17,509 nucleotides of DNA from Candidatus Woesearchaeota archaeon (GTDB lineage: Archaea > Nanobdellota > Nanobdellia > Woesearchaeales > 21-14-0-10-32-9). The position numbers and the translations under genes were made by a program. The notes beneath the pieces are model-generated. The model had not been told where the DNA came from. It worked only from the letters and a program-made list of their open reading frames with translations, and ran no database searches. Positions 3,101-17,509 of this stretch are shown piece by piece (position 1 is the first letter of the stretch; every line of letters begins with the position of its first letter). The stretch spans positions 1-17,509 of the forward strand of contig SKHC01000095.1 in assembly GCA_007117145.1 (NCBI GenBank), in the 5' to 3' direction.

Positions 3101-5612
3101 CGATAATTTAAGTGATGGAGTCTACACTTTTTTCTATAATGCTTCTTCTGATTTTCAAGGACAGTCAAATGGCACATTAGACACTATCTTTATCACCAAT
3201 AATTTATCTATTAACATAACGTACCCTGAGAAAGTATACCTGTATGAGCCCTATAATATAACTGTAGATGTATTTAATGACAAGCCATTTGATATAAACA
3301 ATTTAACAATTAATCTTTCATTAGCAAACGGGGTTCAACTACTAAACTCGAACAATTTCACATTAAACCTATCTTCTAATCAAAGTGATGAAATACATTT
3401 TACGTTAGTTAGTCAAATACCTCAAAGCAATGATTTACCAATAACTTTCTTTGCAAGTCAAGGTATTAATATAACTAAATTTGCGCAGTTAAACATCTCT
3501 GATGAAATATTATCATTGACTGCTAACAACCAAGCAGTCTCGCTTAACCAACCATTCTCATTTCCTTTAAGACTTAATAATACAGGCAGTATAAATCAGA
3601 CTAATATAAGCCTTGAATTTTCAAGTTCTGAAAATATCAACATAACCAATATTACTGTTATTGATAAAGTAACTTACTCAAATGAGACGCATGAGATTAT
3701 TAATGTTACTGGAGAAAATATTAACTCAACCGAGGCCCTAATAAATCTTACAGATCCTAATCTAAATTTTACTGTCAATTATACTAATCAGACCAATTTT
3801 ACTATTTTCACAAGTCTAAATTATACAATTAATACTTCTTATCTAGTTATTAATTATTCTATGTCGGATGGACAAAGCACAATTCTCACTATTCAAAACA
3901 ATAATACCTTGCAAACAAATTGTAACCTAACTGAAAATTCTAGCATCACTACTTGCAACTTAGAAATAATAGATGGAAATTTAGACTTGTTATTTTTATT
4001 TAATGAAACAGGGCAAATAAATATCAGCTACTTAGAGATCGATAACAATGTTTCAATACCTTTAGAAAGAACAAGTATTAATTTTTCAGAGCAATTAATA
4101 ATGATTGATTATCTAGATAATGGCAGTGAGATACTTTTTTCTATAAATGCCATTATCAACAGTTCTGATCAATACATCTATTGGGATGCAAACAGTTATG
4201 AAAATGGGTCTGCTCAGCTTAATATCTCAATTAAAGAGCCAGATACTCCGCCTCCCTCAAGTTCTGGATCTCAAGGTGGAGGCAGTGATAGTGGATCTGC
4301 AGGTCCTCCTCTAAGAGAACAAGAAGATAATGAAACAACTATTAACTGGTCTTACAGCGAGGTATACAGTTTTGCTAATATTTCAAGTGAAGACAAAGAG
4401 TCATTTGCATCATACACAAACTTTTCAGACATACATTTCGAAAAATACGAAGAATACAGAACATGTTTTACTGGTTCAAGGCAATACAATATGGAAACTG
4501 GCAGAATGATTATATCTTTAACCAACAGATGCCAGACTCGTATAGAAGAATTATACGTTTTCGAGCCAATAAACATTACTGGTTTGTTGCAAGATTCAAC
4601 CGTTCACAGTGTTTATGCTTACTCAGGCTATATACTGTTTTTTGATAACTTGTTATCGAATGAAACAAAAAGAGTTGAATACTTTGTTTATAACCTGACT
4701 GAAGAACAACTAGAAAGATTCGAGACTTTAAATATTCATATTCAATCATTATTAATTGCTGATCAAACAAACAATCTGACAGAAGATGGAGTAGATGATG
4801 AAGTGAGTGAACCAAGAGAAGTGAACATACCTGCGAGTATATTATTGCAATCTGCTTTTGTTTTGCTAGTGTTATTAGTATTAGTTAAAATGATTTCTAA
4901 CAATCCTTACAAATATCTAGCCAAATTGCTTCGTGCATATTATGGTTTAAAGCATAAAAAAGTTAGCAAATCTAAAGTATCTATGTCACAGGCCGATATA
5001 ATAATTAATGACATATATTTAAGAGTTCTATACATAGACAAACTTGTTAGAACAAACGAACTAAAAGAGGCTAAACAACTATTTACGGTATTACTTCACG
5101 ATTATAAGTCTAATATTGAGAAAATAAACGAATCTAAAGATTCAGCGGTATTAAATAAGTTGCATTTCGTGGAATCGAAGATAATAAGTTTAACCGATAC
5201 AATATTCTCAATGAATAAACACGAAGACCGGTTCATACTAGATAAGTTTGCGGTTGATGAGATTACAACCAAAAAAGATAAAAACAAATCAGAAAATATT
5301 GACACTTCTGCAGAAAGTTCTAAGGAGGATGTGAAAGAGGATAATAAAGCCATTGATCTATTTATGATTGCTCTAAATATACAGGTATTGATTAAAGATA
5401 AAAAAATTGATTTAGCTGAACAATCACTTCAAAAACTAAAGAAAAAAATAGATGATTTGGAAGAGTTAGATAAAGAAAAAGAGTTTCTCACAAAGAAAGC
5501 TGCTTCACTTGCTTCATCTATTGACCAACTGAAGAAAACAAGTAAAACATACAAATACAAAAAATATTTCAATAATTTGACTTCGAAAGTTAGTGGGATA
5601 TTTAAGAAATAG
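111..5612 (+). CDS. Giant membrane-anchored surface protein with duplicated cysteine-pair helical blocks and N-glycan-rich stalk
   Basis: 1833 aa; I do not recognise a named family. Residues 1-21 are a signal peptide (MIRK, hydrophobic run, VQAQ). Ten closely spaced cysteine pairs start at C131, C188, C249, C333, C385 and again at C537, C596, C658, C740, C788; many are followed by Q-G and a helix with an A-Y-x-x-T-x-D-x-x-Y flavour. The matching spacing shows a ~406-residue tandem duplication, each block preceded by a beta-rich domain. Residues ~830-1375 are beta-type repeats with dozens of N-x-S/T sequons, likely a glycosylated stalk. A Pro/Ser/Gly linker (~1377-1405), a small domain with C1452 and C1474, a membrane helix (~1575-1595) and a ~238-residue Lys/Glu-rich helical cytoplasmic tail follow. 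An S-layer, adhesion or host-contact role is inference only. The start overlaps the upstream stop (ATGA). Confidence 0.85.
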   Translation: MIRKLFFSLLIISLVLFSVQAQTLYSPVFNSYNTLGSDFLGSVYLNESSNPKIEVRFMNESIIDFVISEQGTFNISKDYFKLQGTYYVRFVDESNIFPQESWIPIYLNRNQSFYDDYYSFRTNSTSETFYCVPFSGSYTCRLEHFQAYEIRRFSKLYYQTNDEQYKEIMNNLINSSWVSEEIVDPAFCDPRIGFNCDEIIEDELSFESYAGAKRQGTVIRELWTAYSYTREDTLYELAMNFSYGTAGECNVHNQEFNCQNSRNQGLMIQGYTNAFKHSADPYFLDILESLVEESYSMNNDYELIRGLITASLFIANLEEIIIDRVNESLNEGCETCSEEDIVSKQLMLLDAYKNTDILNSLEESIDSYTIYRALYDSLFYDNITCDHTSENYNCPTPQLQVLKMDLYKGLTFNLFSAEKGFFDARIPALKTNQSGFISVKFLGEIASPHIHIRNHLNQADPFDNYSLNSTDIFNLDSSVIVSGESLTDIDSTFIEVYFSDGPVRYPEDKYFIIPISVVSPSNLVYNESITTNPLEFCEPFAQSPDYSCRYEYMQGDYLAGLSRSIYQENEAELLSALSELSNAEIDDSVEGVFSTCDPNIKDYLCQLEGPDPFVPLKKPGVYRASSLAIGYLEAYKALNEKRLLTDAKLLLHESWDECSLIEEVFDCGDDNQGKIIRAVTLLYELTGDLLFKQWLEELINYATGDTIDQVLGITFAYPHMNNSGLDTIIDQGINNLIEPCSISGACTPLDFYGSLHAVWNSYKLTYNEDYFDLANDFLRSRPSGSVYCMPFEETLPENHVCTYPNEQGVMLSSLRSTEDNYVISSVPNLEVNISSVNEADFGTVMEVNCTVTNVDSLITLSRATLGLSTSQQIISPEPSTIEITNLEPGQNYSVTYSLNLTTGGGRINRCQILNYEASKQLNVTNIGEILSITYNEIANIFSDNVLQINLSNIHNFFLENVHINISRKVNSTHSNQKFSNVTSILPGNQTLIFFYEFDNLSDGVYTFFYNASSDFQGQSNGTLDTIFITNNLSINITYPEKVYLYEPYNITVDVFNDKPFDINNLTINLSLANGVQLLNSNNFTLNLSSNQSDEIHFTLVSQIPQSNDLPITFFASQGINITKFAQLNISDEILSLTANNQAVSLNQPFSFPLRLNNTGSINQTNISLEFSSSENINITNITVIDKVTYSNETHEIINVTGENINSTEALINLTDPNLNFTVNYTNQTNFTIFTSLNYTINTSYLVINYSMSDGQSTILTIQNNNTLQTNCNLTENSSITTCNLEIIDGNLDLLFLFNETGQINISYLEIDNNVSIPLERTSINFSEQLIMIDYLDNGSEILFSINAIINSSDQYIYWDANSYENGSAQLNISIKEPDTPPPSSSGSQGGGSDSGSAGPPLREQEDNETTINWSYSEVYSFANISSEDKESFASYTNFSDIHFEKYEEYRTCFTGSRQYNMETGRMIISLTNRCQTRIEELYVFEPINITGLLQDSTVHSVYAYSGYILFFDNLLSNETKRVEYFVYNLTEEQLERFETLNIHIQSLLIADQTNNLTEDGVDDEVSEPREVNIPASILLQSAFVLLVLLVLVKMISNNPYKYLAKLLRAYYGLKHKKVSKSKVSMSQADIIINDIYLRVLYIDKLVRTNELKEAKQLFTVLLHDYKSNIEKINESKDSAVLNKLHFVESKIISLTDTIFSMNKHEDRFILDKFAVDEITTKKDKNKSENIDTSAESSKEDVKEDNKAIDLFMIALNIQVLIKDKKIDLAEQSLQKLKKKIDDLEELDKEKEFLTKKAASLASSIDQLKKTSKTYKYKKYFNNLTSKVSGIFKK

Positions 5613-5613
5613 T

Positions 5614-6816
5614 CTAGTTTTTAAAGTCTTTTTCAAACAATGTTCTTTTTATTACTTGTACGTCATTTTTTATATTTTCAAACTCTTCTTTTTTCACCAA
5701 GAATTCCATTTTTGATTCAATTTTTGACAGAGTTACAGATATGTCCTTTATACTATTTTGATTACTTTGGCTAGTTTCTGAGGTCTTATTTATTTTGCTT
5801 ACACTTTCACTAATATTTTGTATCATTACCTCTGTTCTAGAGGTATCTCTTTGTATTTGTGTTTTTAATTGTTTAATGGTTTCTTCGGTTTTCTTAATTC
5901 TTTCCAGTTTTTCAATAACATTATCAAAACTTTGAATCTTTTGCATCATATCTGAATATTTCTTCAGTTTTTCTTCATTTAGTTTTGTTTGAGTATCTAA
6001 CTTTTCTAGCTTGCTTTCTATTCTTAAAACATCTGCATCTACACTATTAAATCGTTTATCAAGATTGTCTGGTTTAAATGCATTTACTGTGTATTTTACC
6101 ACTGAAAAATCTTCTTCTAGTTTGTTAAACATTCTTTCTCTTCCAAGAACTGTGCTTCTCAATTCACCAATTTTTTCAAGAAGGTTTTGAATTTGCTCAT
6201 TAGTATCTGCATTTTTTTGATTGAGTAGCTCAATTTTTCCTCCCAACTTTGCAGAATTTATGTTTTCATCTTCAATTGCTTTATTGAGTTTCGCTATTTG
6301 TTTACTTATTTGTCTTTGATTTAATAACTCGACAGGCTCTTCTTTTTCAGTATCATCTTGCTTTGTTTCTTTCTTGTCTTTGAATTTATCTATTATTTTG
6401 GAGAATATTCCTTGCTCGCTCTTTTCAAGCTTTTCAAATTCTTCCGGTTTAAACGTATCTTCTTCTCTTGTGAGTTCTTTTTTTTCATCCTTTTTTGGTT
6501 CAGGTGTTTCTGTTGTTGGTTTGTTACTTTTTTCTTCTTGTTGGGGTTCGTTTTCCTCATCTTTAGATTCTTGAGTATCACTACTAGTTATTTCTTCTTC
6601 AGGTGTATCTGGAACATTTTTTTCGTCTGTAATGTCAAATTTTTCTAATTCAAATGTATCTTCAGGTTCTAATTCCAATTCTTTAAAGACTTTATTAATT
6701 GTTTCTTCAGGTATACTGGATTTCAATAGAATTTCTTTGATAGTTTTATCTGGTTTATTGTTCTTTTTAAACTTCATAACTATCTCTTTTAGCTTAACTA
6801 GCTGTTCTTCCCGCAA
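5614..6816 (-). CDS. Coiled-coil protein with acidic low-complexity linker
   Basis: 400 aa, starting with TTG at 6816. The start is chosen because a GAGGTG Shine-Dalgarno (6825-6830) lies 8 nt before it. Residues 1-50 form a small helical domain (K-T-I-K-E-I-L-L..P-E-E-T-I-N-K-V-F) like the short helical N-terminal modules of many archaeal proteins. Residues ~51-163 are Glu/Lys/Pro/Thr-rich and probably disordered. Residues ~164-390 are heptad-like coiled coil. No signal peptide or membrane segment is seen, so it is probably cytoplasmic and structural. It converges with the surface-protein gene, one base separating the two stops. A cytoskeletal or envelope-linked role is a guess; archaellum FlaC/D/E-like coiled coils are an alternative I cannot exclude, but no archaellum neighbours are present. 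Confidence 0.8.
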   Translation of the reverse strand: MREEQLVKLKEIVMKFKKNNKPDKTIKEILLKSSIPEETINKVFKELELEPEDTFELEKFDITDEKNVPDTPEEEITSSDTQESKDEENEPQQEEKSNKPTTETPEPKKDEKKELTREEDTFKPEEFEKLEKSEQGIFSKIIDKFKDKKETKQDDTEKEEPVELLNQRQISKQIAKLNKAIEDENINSAKLGGKIELLNQKNADTNEQIQNLLEKIGELRSTVLGRERMFNKLEEDFSVVKYTVNAFKPDNLDKRFNSVDADVLRIESKLEKLDTQTKLNEEKLKKYSDMMQKIQSFDNVIEKLERIKKTEETIKQLKTQIQRDTSRTEVMIQNISESVSKINKTSETSQSNQNSIKDISVTLSKIESKMEFLVKKEEFENIKNDVQVIKRTLFEKDFKN

Positions 6817-6938: not shown

Positions 6939-6985
6939 GGACGCCCAGGGTGGGATTTGAACCCACGATCCCAAAGGGACAGGAT

Positions 6986-7027
6986 GTCTGCGGTATTGTC
7001 GGCTATCGACGCACTTTATGTGGTACG
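6986..7027 (-). other. tRNA intron 2 (42 nt, canonical position 37/38)
   Basis: Exon bases TTGC before the 5' bulge (TA^C) pair with intron bases GCAG before the 3' bulge (AC^A), one G-U included, giving the 4-bp central helix. The outer helix is the anticodon stem CAGGA/TCCTG itself, complete only once intron 1 is gone. Inside the intron a GTCG-ATAGC-CGAC hairpin can form. Confidence 0.82.
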
Positions 7028-7035
7028 TAGCAATC

Positions 7036-7067
7036 TTACGCGTACACTAGTTTTTCCTAATTATACT
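7036..7067 (-). other. tRNA intron 1 (32 nt, non-canonical position 29/30)
   Basis: The exon ends GCGC-AG and the intron ends GCGT-AA. With two bases left in each bulge, GCGC pairs with GCGT (one G-U) as the 4-bp central helix, and intron bases GTATA pair with TGTAC as the inner helix. The outer helix is weak, so this is a relaxed form of the motif cut by the archaeal splicing endonuclease. The position is fixed because only G29|G30 gives a fully paired anticodon stem. Confidence 0.8.
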
Positions 7068-7121
7068 CTGCGCAATACCAGACTATGCGACCTGGGCAGG
7101 TAACATTGAGACTATGATTTT

Positions 7122-7138: not shown

Positions 7139-7775
7139 TTATTTGAGTTTATTATTGATTCTCAATATATGTTTTGGATTTATTAATCCAATTTCCTCCT
7201 GAAATTTTTTACGTTGTGTAACGCCAGTAATTCTGATGTGGGATTGATCACCATATTTATTTTTATAATTCCAAGTATAGGTTCTTATATTGTGTTCTTC
7301 TAATAGTTTTTGTATTTGTTTAATTAATTCTTTTGATTTTGAAGAGTATGCTATTATGGGATATAGTTTCTCTTTCTTATTATTTATTTTAGCAAGATAA
7401 GCTGTTCCATCTGATGCAAAAAGTCCTCGTATAATTTATTTTTTCTTTATTTTTGATAGCGCCATTAACGAATTTGAGATAATTACTGTTTCGGTTTCTT
7501 TACCTGGCTTAAATCCTGTATCTAGTATTCTTAAGATGAATTCCTTATTACAGGTTCTGATACCATAACAACCATTTTTACCACCCGAACGAAAGCCAAT
7601 AGTCACTTTTTCTATGTATTTGTTGAATAAATTCAAGATGTAACTATCATAAAATTGTTTTTCATTCAAATTGCTCCCGGAGTTCAAAAACTAAATGATT
7701 ACCAGTCTTATAGATGCTTCCATCTCCTATCTATAATCCAATTATTTCTAAGAATTCTTCATCATAGTTGTTCAT
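7139..7775 (-). pseudogene. Decayed LAGLIDADG homing endonuclease
   Basis: From ATG at 7775 the frame reads MNNYDEEFLEIIGL-stop-IGDGSIYKTG, the first LAGLIDADG helix broken by TAG (7731-7733). After ...LVFEL near 7685 the frame shifts by one base, possibly in a T run, and continues GSNLNEKQFYDSYILNLF, GFRSGG, FILRILDTG. An in-frame TAA at 7436-7438 then interrupts just before the second motif IIRGLFASDG; the C-terminal domain (ITGVTQRKKFQEEIGL) runs to TAA at 7139-7141. Restored, it would be ~211 aa with two motifs, the usual single-chain layout of such enzymes. The active-site acidic residues of both motifs remain (IGDG, ASDG), so decay may be fairly recent. It ends 42 bases before the doubly interrupted tRNA-Ser, on the same strand. 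Such enzymes spread introns, inteins or themselves. Confidence 0.82.
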
Positions 7776-7842
7776 GTAACTGATTTATTTTGGTTGTTAT
7801 TATGATTTACGGTGATAAGTGTCCAGTGTGTTTTCAAAAATG

Positions 7843-10008: not shown

Positions 10009-10078
10009 TTTTCTATGTTTTGGGTCGATAAAGACCTATTTAACTTCCATAATGAAAATAAATGCGTTACCAAAACCT

Positions 10079-10088
10079 TTATATTTAG
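10079..10088 (+). promoter_or_regulatory. TATA box, leaderless promoter of serS
   Basis: TTTATATTTA is centred about 26 bases before the ATG at 10109, the same geometry as the other leaderless promoters in the window. It supports starting SerRS at 10109 rather than at an in-frame ATG at 10052. Confidence 0.6.
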
Positions 10089-10108
10089 GGTTTTGTTTAA
10101 AGGAAAGT

Positions 10109-11377
10109 ATGATTGATATAAAAATTTTAAGGGAAAATCCCAATTTAATTATTGAAGATTTGAAAAAAAGAAAGGATAAAGATAAAGTAAAGCTTGTAAG
10201 AACTCTAAAAGCTAAAGATGAGCTTTGGAGAAAGCTAAAATTTGAAGAAGATAATCTTAGAAGCCAAAGAAATAAACTAAGTAAAGAAGTATCAGAGCTT
10301 AAAAAACAAAACAAAGACGCTTCAAAAATATTAGCTAAAGTTAAAACGATACCAGATAAAATAAAAGATAATCAAGAAAAAAGATTAATCTTGGAAAAAG
10401 AAATCGATGTAGGTCTTAAAAGCATTCCAAACATAACTCACGAGTCTGTTCCCTTTGGAAAGGATGATTCTGAGAACGTTCCAGTTAAACATTGGGGCTC
10501 TCCCAAAACATTTAGTTTTGAGCTTAAACCTCACCAAGAAGTAGCAGAGTTAATTGAGGGTGCTGATTTTGATAGAAGTTCGAAAATTTCAGGTTCTGGT
10601 TTTTACGTGTTAAAAGGTAAATTAGCTTTGTTAAATCAAGCTCTAATCCGATTTGCCATAGATTCATTGGTTAGAAAAAATTATACTTATATGGAAATGC
10701 CTTTAATTATGAATAAAGAAGCATATGAAACAGGAGTTAGTTTTGAAGATTTCGAGAATGTTATGTATAAAATAGATGGTGAAGATAAATACTTAATCGC
10801 AACATCTGAGCATCCATTACTTGCTCAGTTTAAAGATGATGTGTTTAACTTAGATGATCTCCCAGTTAGGCTTTGTAGTTATTCTATGTGTTTTAGAAAG
10901 GAAGTTGGCAGTCATGGCCTTGACACAAAAGGATTTTTTAGAACTCATCAATTCAACAAGGTTGAGCAAGTAATTATTTGCAAGCCTGAAGATAGCTACA
11001 ATCTTCATGAAGAGCTTCAAAAAAACTCAGAGGAGCTATATGAAAAATTAGAATTACCATACAGAGTTGTAAATATTTGTACTGGTGATCTTGGCGGTTT
11101 TGCTGCGAAAAAGTATGACATCGAGACTTGGATGCCAAGGCAAAAATCATACAAGGAAACAGGTAGCAATTCAAATTACACTGATTATCAGGCAAGAAGA
11201 GCTAACATAAGATACAAAGATAAAAACCAGAAAGTCTTCGTTCACACTTTAAACAATACAGCTATTGCTACAAGTAGATTGTTAGTTGCTATACTCGAGA
11301 ATTATCAAAATAAAGATGGCTCTGTTACAATACCTAAAGTATTAAGGCCTTACATGTATGGGATGAGCAAAATATGA
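10109..11377 (+). CDS. serS: Seryl-tRNA synthetase
   Basis: 422 aa from ATG 10109. Charges tRNA-Ser with serine using ATP in the cytoplasm. The N-terminal ~105 residues are the long coiled-coil arm that grips the serine tRNA variable arm. The class II core follows: LIATSEHPL (~229-237), motif 2 FRKEVGSHG...FFRTHQFNKVEQ (~262-287) with the ATP-binding arginines, the serine-site region CTGDLGGFAAKKYD and SNSNYTDYQARR, and motif 3 with SRLLVAILENYQ (~389-400). Length and motifs fit the common (non-methanogen) SerRS type. An in-frame ATG at 10052 would add 19 residues the family does not need, and the TATA box at 10079-10088 falls inside that extension. The downstream gene overlaps the stop (ATGA), forming an operon. 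Its substrate, tRNA-Ser(GCU), is encoded about 3 kb away. Confidence 0.96.
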   Translation: MIDIKILRENPNLIIEDLKKRKDKDKVKLVRTLKAKDELWRKLKFEEDNLRSQRNKLSKEVSELKKQNKDASKILAKVKTIPDKIKDNQEKRLILEKEIDVGLKSIPNITHESVPFGKDDSENVPVKHWGSPKTFSFELKPHQEVAELIEGADFDRSSKISGSGFYVLKGKLALLNQALIRFAIDSLVRKNYTYMEMPLIMNKEAYETGVSFEDFENVMYKIDGEDKYLIATSEHPLLAQFKDDVFNLDDLPVRLCSYSMCFRKEVGSHGLDTKGFFRTHQFNKVEQVIICKPEDSYNLHEELQKNSEELYEKLELPYRVVNICTGDLGGFAAKKYDIETWMPRQKSYKETGSNSNYTDYQARRANIRYKDKNQKVFVHTLNNTAIATSRLLVAILENYQNKDGSVTIPKVLRPYMYGMSKI

Positions 11378-16333: not shown

Positions 16334-16747
16334 ATGCCTAAATTCGAGTTTTTTGAGCACACAGCCGATGTTAAGTTTAAAGCATATGGTAAAACATTAG
16401 CTGAAGCTTTCGAGAATTCGGCGAAAGCCACTTTTAAAGTAATGACAGACATAGAGAAAGTGAGTAAAAGCAGTGAGTTAACAATTGAAGTTTCTGCTGT
16501 GAGTGTTGAGAGTTTGGTTTTTAATTTTTTAGATGAGTTAATTTTTATAATGGATTCAGAAGCATTTCTTCTAAATGACATCAAAGTTGAAATTAAAGAT
16601 TTAACTCTTAAAGCTACGATTGTTGGAGATTACCAGCAAGAATTCAAGTACGATGTTCATACATACGTAAAAGCAGTGACACTAAACGAGTTAAAAGTAG
16701 AGAAATCTGCAAGTAAATACACAATTCAAGTAGTACTTGACATCTAA
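16334..16747 (+). CDS. Archease, RtcB activator
   Basis: 137 aa, normal length for the family. Archease speeds guanylylation of the RNA ligase RtcB and allows multiple turnover in tRNA splicing. The family signature is present: FFEHTADVKFKAYGKTLAEAFENSA at the N-terminus with H9 and D12, LDELIFIMD in the middle, and YVKAVTLNEL near the C-terminus; these acidic and histidine residues form the metal site that faces RtcB. RtcB is the next gene, beginning 49 bases downstream from its own promoter. This is the conserved archaeal archease-RtcB neighbourhood. Confidence 0.93.
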   Translation: MPKFEFFEHTADVKFKAYGKTLAEAFENSAKATFKVMTDIEKVSKSSELTIEVSAVSVESLVFNFLDELIFIMDSEAFLLNDIKVEIKDLTLKATIVGDYQQEFKYDVHTYVKAVTLNELKVEKSASKYTIQVVLDI

Positions 16748-16796: not shown

Positions 16797-17509
16797 ATGA
16801 AAAAGTTAAACGAGTATTCTTTCCTGGTTGAAAAGAAAGGAGATATGAAAGTTCCTCTAAAAATATTTGCTTCAGATAAACTCATGGAGAAGATGGAGCA
16901 AGATAGTTGCATTCAGCAAGGTATTAATGTGGCTGGGCTTCCAGGTATTAAAGGCTATAGTATAATGATGCCTGATGCTCATCAAGGCTATGGTTTTAGC
17001 ATAGGAGGCGTTGCTGCCACAGGTGAGAAAGACGGATGTTTGAGCCCTGGAGGCGTTGGTTTTGATGTGAATTGCGGAGTGCGTTTGCTCACCACGAATT
17101 TAACCGTTGAAGATGTTGAAGGTAAAATAGAAGAATTATTAGAAGTCTTGTTTAAGAATATTCCTCCAGGTATGGGTGGTAAATCCAAGTTTCAATTAGA
17201 TAATGATGAGTTAGACAAAGTCTTAGTTCAAGGACCAAAGTACATGGTTGATAGAGGTTTTGGGATACAAGAAGATATTGATAATTGCGAGAGTAATGGT
17301 GAAATGCCAGATGCGGATCCAACAAAGATTTCTGATAAGGCAAAGAAGAGAGGTAGAAATCAACTGGGAACTCTTGGCAGTGGGAATCATTTCTTAGAAA
17401 TTCAACGAATAGGGGAGATTTTCGATAAAGATATTGCTAAACAATTTGGTATTTTAAATGAGGGTCAAATAGTTGTTTTAATACATACTGGAAGCAGAGG
17501 TCTAGGTCA
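16797..17509 (+). CDS. rtcB: RtcB, 3'-phosphate RNA ligase / tRNA splicing ligase (partial, 3' end outside window)
   Basis: 237 codons are visible and the frame is open to the window end; the family is about 480 aa, so roughly half is present. RtcB joins a 2',3'-cyclic phosphate or 3'-phosphate end to a 5'-OH using GTP and Mn2+, sealing tRNA exons after splicing endonuclease cleavage. Visible: MPDAHQGYGFSIGGVAA, the metal-binding cysteine C93 in FDVNCGVR, H198 in GSGNHFLE and H230 in IHTGSRG. There is no intein after the FDVNCGVR motif, a known insertion site in some archaeal RtcBs. The leaderless promoter fixes the start; archease lies just upstream. The tRNA-Ser with two introns in this window is a predicted substrate. 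Confidence 0.95.
   Translation, partial: MKKLNEYSFLVEKKGDMKVPLKIFASDKLMEKMEQDSCIQQGINVAGLPGIKGYSIMMPDAHQGYGFSIGGVAATGEKDGCLSPGGVGFDVNCGVRLLTTNLTVEDVEGKIEELLEVLFKNIPPGMGGKSKFQLDNDELDKVLVQGPKYMVDRGFGIQEDIDNCESNGEMPDADPTKISDKAKKRGRNQLGTLGSGNHFLEIQRIGEIFDKDIAKQFGILNEGQIVVLIHTGSRGLG

Follow-up and report, generated by a model that had tools for sequence, protein, structure and literature searches.

Archaeal tRNA genes can carry several bulge-helix-bulge (BHB) introns at once, combining introns at noncanonical sites with one at the canonical site 37/38 (PMC8450103, PMC4090602), and some introns are spaced so closely that one must leave before the motif of the second can form (PMC8450103). Two models have been put forward for introns at odd positions, namely, that they protect the tRNA gene against integration or that integrating plasmids delivered them (Sugahara 2012, PMC3293823). 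In that paper, the tRNA-Thr(GGU) locus of Caldiarchaeum subterraneum comprises a 5' tRNA fragment and then an inserted 813-bp open reading frame (ORF) that directly adjoins a full tRNA and shares its strand. An intron (24/25) is part of the insertion, which ends at nucleotide 27, a few nucleotides past the intron site. SVMProt was the sole basis for classifying the ORF (DNA binding or recombination), and a pNOB8-type integrase was proposed (PMC3293823). A different kind of intron mobility has been described as collaborative homing, in which a nuclease gene outside an intron mobilizes the adjacent, nuclease-less intron (PMC2814812).

Here we describe a tRNA-Ser(GCU) gene that is interrupted twice and has a decayed homing endonuclease beside it. 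The first-pass annotation did not mention the nuclease, which we judge to be the more important part: the remnant and its relatives beside other tRNA genes suggest how such introns spread.

Results

The window, that is, the whole stretch of 17,509 nucleotides that was analyzed, is contig 31 of a 640-kb genome that is about 80% complete. Its tRNA-Ser(GCU) gene (positions 6942 to 7097) lies on the minus strand, as do all of its parts, and consists of three exons and two BHB introns. Exon 1 (7068 to 7097; nucleotides 1 to 29 in tRNA numbering) is followed by the 32-nt intron 1 (7036 to 7067) at 29/30, which is missing from many relatives; the 8-nt micro-exon GATTGCTA (7028 to 7035; nucleotides 30 to 37) holds the anticodon GCU; and the 42-nt intron 2 (6986 to 7027) at 37/38 separates it from exon 3 (6942 to 6985; nucleotides 38 to 73). 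Read from 7097 to 6942, the gene begins with GCCCAGG and ends with CCTGGGC G. It encodes a class II tRNA with a 7-bp acceptor stem, a 3-bp D stem, a long variable arm, and a T arm, in which 32 + 8 + 42 extra or exonic bases stand between the D arm and the variable arm. The mature tRNA has 82 nt and folds into a cloverleaf whose variable arm is long and whose anticodon arm reads CAGGA-UUGCUAA-UCCUG; by fold and by comparison, this cloverleaf equals that of intron-less relatives. Each intron has the 4-bp helix between two 3-nt bulges that defines a BHB, with the cores GCGC/GCGU (intron 1) and UUGC/GCAG (intron 2) and the cut after the second bulge base.

We fitted cloverleaves over zero, one, or two BHB introns with a scoring script (the splice parser). 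Its optimum for the window, at a score of 21.3, was Ser GCU interrupted by 32 nt at 29/30 and by 42 nt at 37/38; the runner-up (18.1) was also Ser GCU, with the first cut moved by one, and one-intron or wrong-isotype versions scored lower. The three-exon reading given in the first-pass annotation is thus the best parser fit, and intron-less relatives have the exons joined as it predicted, which fixes the exon junctions. The two BHB cores and their splice sites were likewise found as described, in the parser and in the relatives. The first intron sits at the noncanonical 29/30; a correction concerns the second, which sits at the canonical 37/38. The caution that automatic annotation might fail here was well placed, as both ARAGORN, which called 0 tRNAs in the window, and Rfam, which found no tRNA there at E <= 1, miss the gene. 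At the tRNA-Ser(GCU), no group I intron match exceeded the Rfam gathering score; one weak match elsewhere (5505 to 5636; 21.1 bits against a cutoff of 50) lies within protein-coding sequence and was rejected. The twice-interrupted tRNA-Ser(GCU) is real and confirmed.

No second Ser(GCU) gene was seen in the approximately 80%-complete genome, either among 21 Rfam tRNA matches read with the ARAGORN isotypes called nearby (none was called in L020, and some matches stayed unnamed) or with a D-arm pattern, which gave two matches, one of them the window gene. The strict form of the parser missed relatives with 3-bp cores (L061, L030) and was therefore relaxed to three pairs; assignments in the relaxed form are doubtful for L082, L103, and L104, intron positions in other isotypes are proposals, and at a few loci the parser gives only a rough length for intron 2 (for L154, 4 nt in one run and 43 in another).

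When the window gene was used as a query against the genomes of 99 relatives, intron 1 was absent from the same tRNA in G001, G005, G008, G009, G096, G007, G004, and G078, both introns were absent in G050, G081, and G093, and both were present in G006, G010, and G077. Where intron 1 is absent, exon 1 joins the micro-exon directly, in the very comparison with intron-less relatives that had been proposed as a check. A pattern scan of named species genomes (exon 1, then 18 to 48 nt, then the micro-exon) returned 16 stretches, 15 of them archaeal (Woesearchaeota, Nanoarchaeota, one "archaeon," and one Nanoarchaeia) and one from Pseudoalteromonas, which is taken as a chance match. Two of the stretches are the G006 and G010 loci, which come from the same family as the window and bear Woesearchaeota titles, in agreement with the earlier guess of a DPANN genome.

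We gathered 69 distinct Ser(GCU) loci, of which 21 have both introns, 2 only intron 1, 28 only intron 2 (37/38), and 18 neither (intron 1 in 23 of 69). Without 4 loci that were fetched through the nuclease described below, 65 remain, with intron 1 in 20 and both introns in 18; without 3 more that came from the intron-demanding pattern only, 62 remain, with intron 1 in 17 and both in 15. These counts are not population frequencies, because gathering was nonrandom: the D-arm pattern allowed two mismatches, and only places with a match ending like Ser(GCU) were fetched. Two introns this close had been expected to be unusual in such a genome, and they are not: 15 of the 62 loci gathered regardless of intron or nuclease have both, and the parser also proposes pairs at 30/31 and 37/38 in other isotypes.

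In the cell, the splicing endonuclease would remove both BHB introns from the precursor, and RtcB with archease would join the exons. The window's genome has one PF01974 splicing endonuclease gene (183 amino acids; G000:C37, L265). Archease, the partner of the RtcB ligase, lies in the window (16334 to 16747, plus strand; PF01951, E 1.2e-38), as does RtcB RNA ligase, cut by the window end (16920 to 17507, plus strand; PF01139, E 3.5e-71, positions 2 to 193 of 426). Both genes and a seryl-tRNA synthetase gene (10052 to 11377) share 17.5 kb with the spliced tRNA-Ser, possibly by coincidence. Ten relatives also have one PF01974 gene each, although introns occupy many noncanonical sites; G046 has a pair of partial matches, each at the end of a contig, that are probably one gene. 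The single gene suggested a homotetramer acting on odd sites, an idea that we set aside: a diverged second subunit may be missed, and among the solved structures most like it is a catalytic subunit from an enzyme with two different subunits.

Folding gave a mixed picture. It is compatible with the motif of intron 1, which when forced in the full precursor gives -53.3 kcal/mol versus a minimum of -54.5 kcal/mol. The motif of intron 2 is not favored (forced, -42.4 kcal/mol in the full precursor, whose minimum is -54.5, and -39.2 versus -48.6 kcal/mol once intron 1 is taken out); pairing of intron 2 with the D arm is part of the reason. Intron 2 (7027 to 6986) contains CAATACC, complementary to GGTATTG of the exon 1 D arm, and AATACC occurs in 18 of 38 Ser 37/38 introns of at least 25 nt versus 14 of 760 shuffles; it may act as a guide carried by the intron or may help the RNA to fold.

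Directly upstream of the tRNA, on the same minus strand and ending 41 nt before it, lies a decayed LAGLIDADG homing endonuclease (7139 to 7775). It is a pseudogene, its frame broken by an in-frame TAG in the first motif (7733 to 7731), a frameshift, and an in-frame TAA (7438 to 7436), so that the remnant reads MNNYDEEFLEIIGL-stop-IGDGS, frameshift, middle piece, in-frame stop, and then IIRGLFASDGT... to the end. The C-terminal piece (98 amino acids; 7435 to 7142) matches Pfam PF14528 (E 3.8e-13); the middle piece (83 amino acids) matched no Pfam family. The first seven matches of the middle piece are all relatives from the Ser clade described below, while the C-terminal piece does not discriminate in this way and matches Met, Ile, and unlabeled rows best. 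A transglutaminase gene flanks the remnant, and in several relatives without intron 1 such a gene stands near the tRNA with no nuclease in between; in G077, which belongs to another family, a homologue of the nuclease occupies the same place beside a Ser(GCU) gene with intron 1.

Upstream of most relatives of the nuclease stands the element CACTGGACA (in the window, 7820 to 7828, minus strand), and a TATA-like stretch usually comes after it. When no more than one mismatch was allowed, it was found at 72 of 99 relatives and at 0 of 99 mid-ORF controls, and it is a candidate for a promoter or operator element shared by the family. Between this element and the start, a conserved hairpin (GAAAAAGAGAACACGCAAAACTGCCAAATTA...) was seen at 10 of 99 nuclease loci (L095, L174, L178, L183, L184, L190, L248, L257, L258, and L261) and at 0 of 99 mid-ORF controls. 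For two examples, the folding z scores are -6.7 and -7.1, and the arms of the outer stem seem to covary; the hairpin is a candidate new structured RNA.

In an alignment of 11 frames from relatives (A1; best matches of the window piece and frames from the intron scan, some picked after their surroundings had been seen), the GDG and TDG columns of the two LAGLIDADG motifs are invariant. An AlphaFold2 model of an intact relative (pLDDT 88.8) has as its best solved Foldseek match I-Tsp061I (2dch; E 7.4e-12, TM 0.71 by query), titled an intron-encoded endonuclease. A profile search also finds I-DmoI (E 1.3e-7), an rRNA-intron-encoded endonuclease. The model fits a two-domain LAGLIDADG fold for the intact relatives, which are predicted to cleave DNA. 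The family is large: at E <= 1e-10, matches occur in 227 of the order's 352 genomes; 152 of 371 genomes of a phylum sample, including some outside the order, have one at E <= 1e-25; and 1569 proteins match at E <= 1e-8. One of these proteins, P0090, is an intact nuclease of 219 amino acids, in contrast to the broken one of the window, and is encoded on a contig that is likewise 17,509 bases long.

We collected 105 nuclease loci (the first 30 matches listed, the 40 ranked after them, 20 that stood lowest among those listed, and 15 from other orders). An automatic detector placed a tRNA at the nuclease edge in 71 of the 105, versus 8 of 210 shuffled-flank controls; Rfam added 8 loci (L094, L102, L106, L108, L179, L183, L201, and L208), and reading of the printed flanks by eye, which was unblinded, added 21, for a total of about 100. 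As far as was seen, no complete tRNA adjoins the nuclease at L099 and L204 (which have fragments), L216, L250, and L261. The tRNA mostly lies at the 3' end of the nuclease, on the same strand in 26 of 48 cases and on the opposite strand in 22, and the nuclease frame runs into it in 32 of 48; at L061 and L075, the nuclease stop codon is the TAG within the tRNA's GCATAG. Nuclease-adjacent tRNAs exceed 93 nt in 37 of 48 cases, versus 43 of the 113 tRNAs that Rfam matched in five genomes (the two counts come from different programs); the other 11 of 48 have at most 93 nt, and several of these are without an intron. By eye, an apparent extra T-loop intron was seen in the tRNAs of L052, L066, L075, L080, L186, L202, and L255, and some of these genes appear to have three interruptions.

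The nucleases group by the isotype of the neighboring tRNA. On a tree of 56 nucleases, labeled by the splice parser or, for Gln, by eye, the isotype changes 12 times, versus a mean of 38.0 in shuffles, none of 200 of which was as low. Clades were found for Ser (10 rows, support 99), Gln (9 rows, support 100), and Met (9 of 10 rows, support 100); Asn nucleases form no clade (3 changes for 4 rows), and L218 is labeled Asn by the parser, yet the tree places it in the Ile clade. The tRNA-Gln(UUG) genes of L182, L183, L186, L190, L191, L194, and L201, whose nucleases fall in one clade, have an apparent intron near the D stem. The ten Ser-clade rows represent ten host families (G213, G155, G082, G351, G046, G343, G104, G349, G385, and G370), and eight of these nucleases adjoin a gene with a 29/30 intron. 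The exceptions are L176, in which the nuclease is present, intron 1 is not, and the site reads GCGAGG, and L180, in which the nuclease stands beside an intron-less Ser gene. Such isotype clades could also reflect inheritance at fixed loci.

The nuclease also appears to be associated with intron 1 itself. In 62 Ser(GCU) loci whose upstream flank spans 700 nt or more, 4 of which were fetched through the nuclease, it was found in 8 of 20 with intron 1 and in 1 of 42 without (P = 0.00027). Among the loci ascertained through the tRNA, it precedes the gene in 5 of 17 that carry intron 1 and in 0 of 41 that lack it (Fisher P = 0.0014), and with the window left out as the index case, in 4 of 16 with intron 1 (Fisher P = 0.0046), kinship being ignored in both tests. 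The nuclease-fetched L176 and L180, unlike those 41 loci, have the nuclease without intron 1. In 12 of the 17 intron-1 loci, no nuclease was found within 1.1 kb upstream, and its later loss must therefore be assumed for these; downstream flanks mostly span about 350 nt, too little to reveal a nuclease there.

These numbers bear on one alternative, an ordinary multi-intron tRNA gene that arose by unrelated intron events, with the nuclease an unrelated parasite at tRNA genes, which are common insertion sites. Introns are frequent anyway, as the share of long tRNAs in the five genomes indicates, and the 12 nuclease-less intron-1 loci and the intron-less tRNAs beside some nucleases are what such an alternative would lead one to expect. 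Against it stand a nuclease upstream in 5 of 17 versus 0 of 41 loci, nuclease clades that are isotype specific, and a remnant at one further locus that is broken close to the site of intron 1, and we regard it as unlikely, though not to be neglected.

That locus, L211 (G370, from another order), has upstream of its nuclease a tRNA-Ser exon 1, identical at 29 of its 30 nt, followed by GATTG and then by unrelated sequence; after the nuclease comes a full tRNA-Ser with intron 1. By its sequence, the remnant is a gene without intron 1 that breaks off 5 nt beyond the point where the intron would sit. Displaced tRNA fragments were found in the nuclease units of 3 of 48 loci versus 0 of 240 controls and are sharp only in L211. 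Shorter or decayed 5' fragments occur in L106, L108, L245, and L088 and a 3' fragment in L080, and a BLAST scan gave more weak direct repeats in L091, L101, L103, L106, L185, L211, and L222; no general rule for the break point emerged from the fragment and BLAST scans of the units.

L211 also speaks to the possibility that the nuclease attacks tRNA genes and that host selection keeps the introns as protection, without their being nuclease cargo. Intron 1 does interrupt the region where L211 broke, L176, which lacks the intron, has the nuclease next to a tRNA whose site is altered, and intron protection of tRNA genes from integration has been discussed before (Sugahara 2012, PMC3293823). Yet in L211, a single case, it is the new copy, adjacent to the nuclease, that carries the intron, whereas the old remnant does not; this favors joint arrival, and we consider selection for resistance alone quite improbable. 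Integrase-type insertion, as proposed for the Caldiarchaeum tRNA-Thr, in which a plasmid or virus brought the intron with the nuclease as cargo, would explain why the tandem tRNA fragments beside the unit (L211, L106, L108, and L080) resemble an integration duplication, but it is hardly credible given units of about 650 to 900 nt that, where read, have no gene but the nuclease between fragment and tRNA, and no recombinase among nine window proteins scanned with Pfam.

Discussion

Our preferred explanation, which we hold to be probable, is that a free-standing homing nuclease spreads the neighboring tRNA intron by collaborative homing. Intron 1 would have come to 29/30 with a mobile unit in which a free-standing LAGLIDADG homing endonuclease lies directly 5' of the tRNA. 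The nuclease would cut intron-1-less tRNA-Ser(GCU) genes at or near 29/30, and repair off the donor would then copy the nuclease gene, the 5' half of the tRNA, and the intron as one. In the new copy, the intron would hide the cut site and so protect it, and the window nuclease would have decayed later, as expected after fixation. This explanation draws together what the loci display: the structure of the gene, the presence and absence of its introns, the adjacency of nuclease and tRNA, the isotype clades, and the one remnant at L211.

We also lean, with some reserve, toward a wider reading in which a large family of free-standing LAGLIDADG endonucleases, found in Woesearchaeota and other orders of the class and with each clade serving one isotype and mostly one intron position, both creates and spreads tRNA introns there, with the Caldiarchaeum tRNA-Thr insertion probably included. 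The positions proposed for the clades are 29/30 for Ser, 30/31 for Met and Ile(GAU), 37/38 for Arg(UCG), and the D arm for Gln.

The origin and spread of archaeal tRNA introns at odd positions have been a long-standing question, and a nuclease-driven model, if true, would be directly testable. It would also extend collaborative homing to introns that are spliced by proteins and would provide a family of natural enzymes aimed at conserved tRNA genes. In the open-access literature, we found no report of linked, isotype-specific tRNA homing nucleases.

Among known systems, the window tRNA itself belongs to the multi-intron archaeal BHB tRNA genes. It shares with those described before the pairing of a noncanonical site with 37/38; here the host is a member of the Woesearchaeota, and intron 1 is linked to a neighboring family of homing endonucleases. 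The layout of L211 is like that of the Caldiarchaeum tRNA-Thr(GGU) insertion as set out in PMC3293823, and by analogy we would guess that the ORF there, "b," might be a LAGLIDADG enzyme. I-Tsp061I and I-DmoI have the same LAGLIDADG fold, and the present family differs in sitting outside the intron, at the edge of the tRNA. With collaborative homing (PMC2814812), the window has in common a free-standing nuclease next to a nuclease-less intron; the introns in that system are group I introns, whereas those here are BHB tRNA introns excised by proteins. We accordingly rate the tRNA-linked, isotype-specific nucleases as a variant of collaborative homing.
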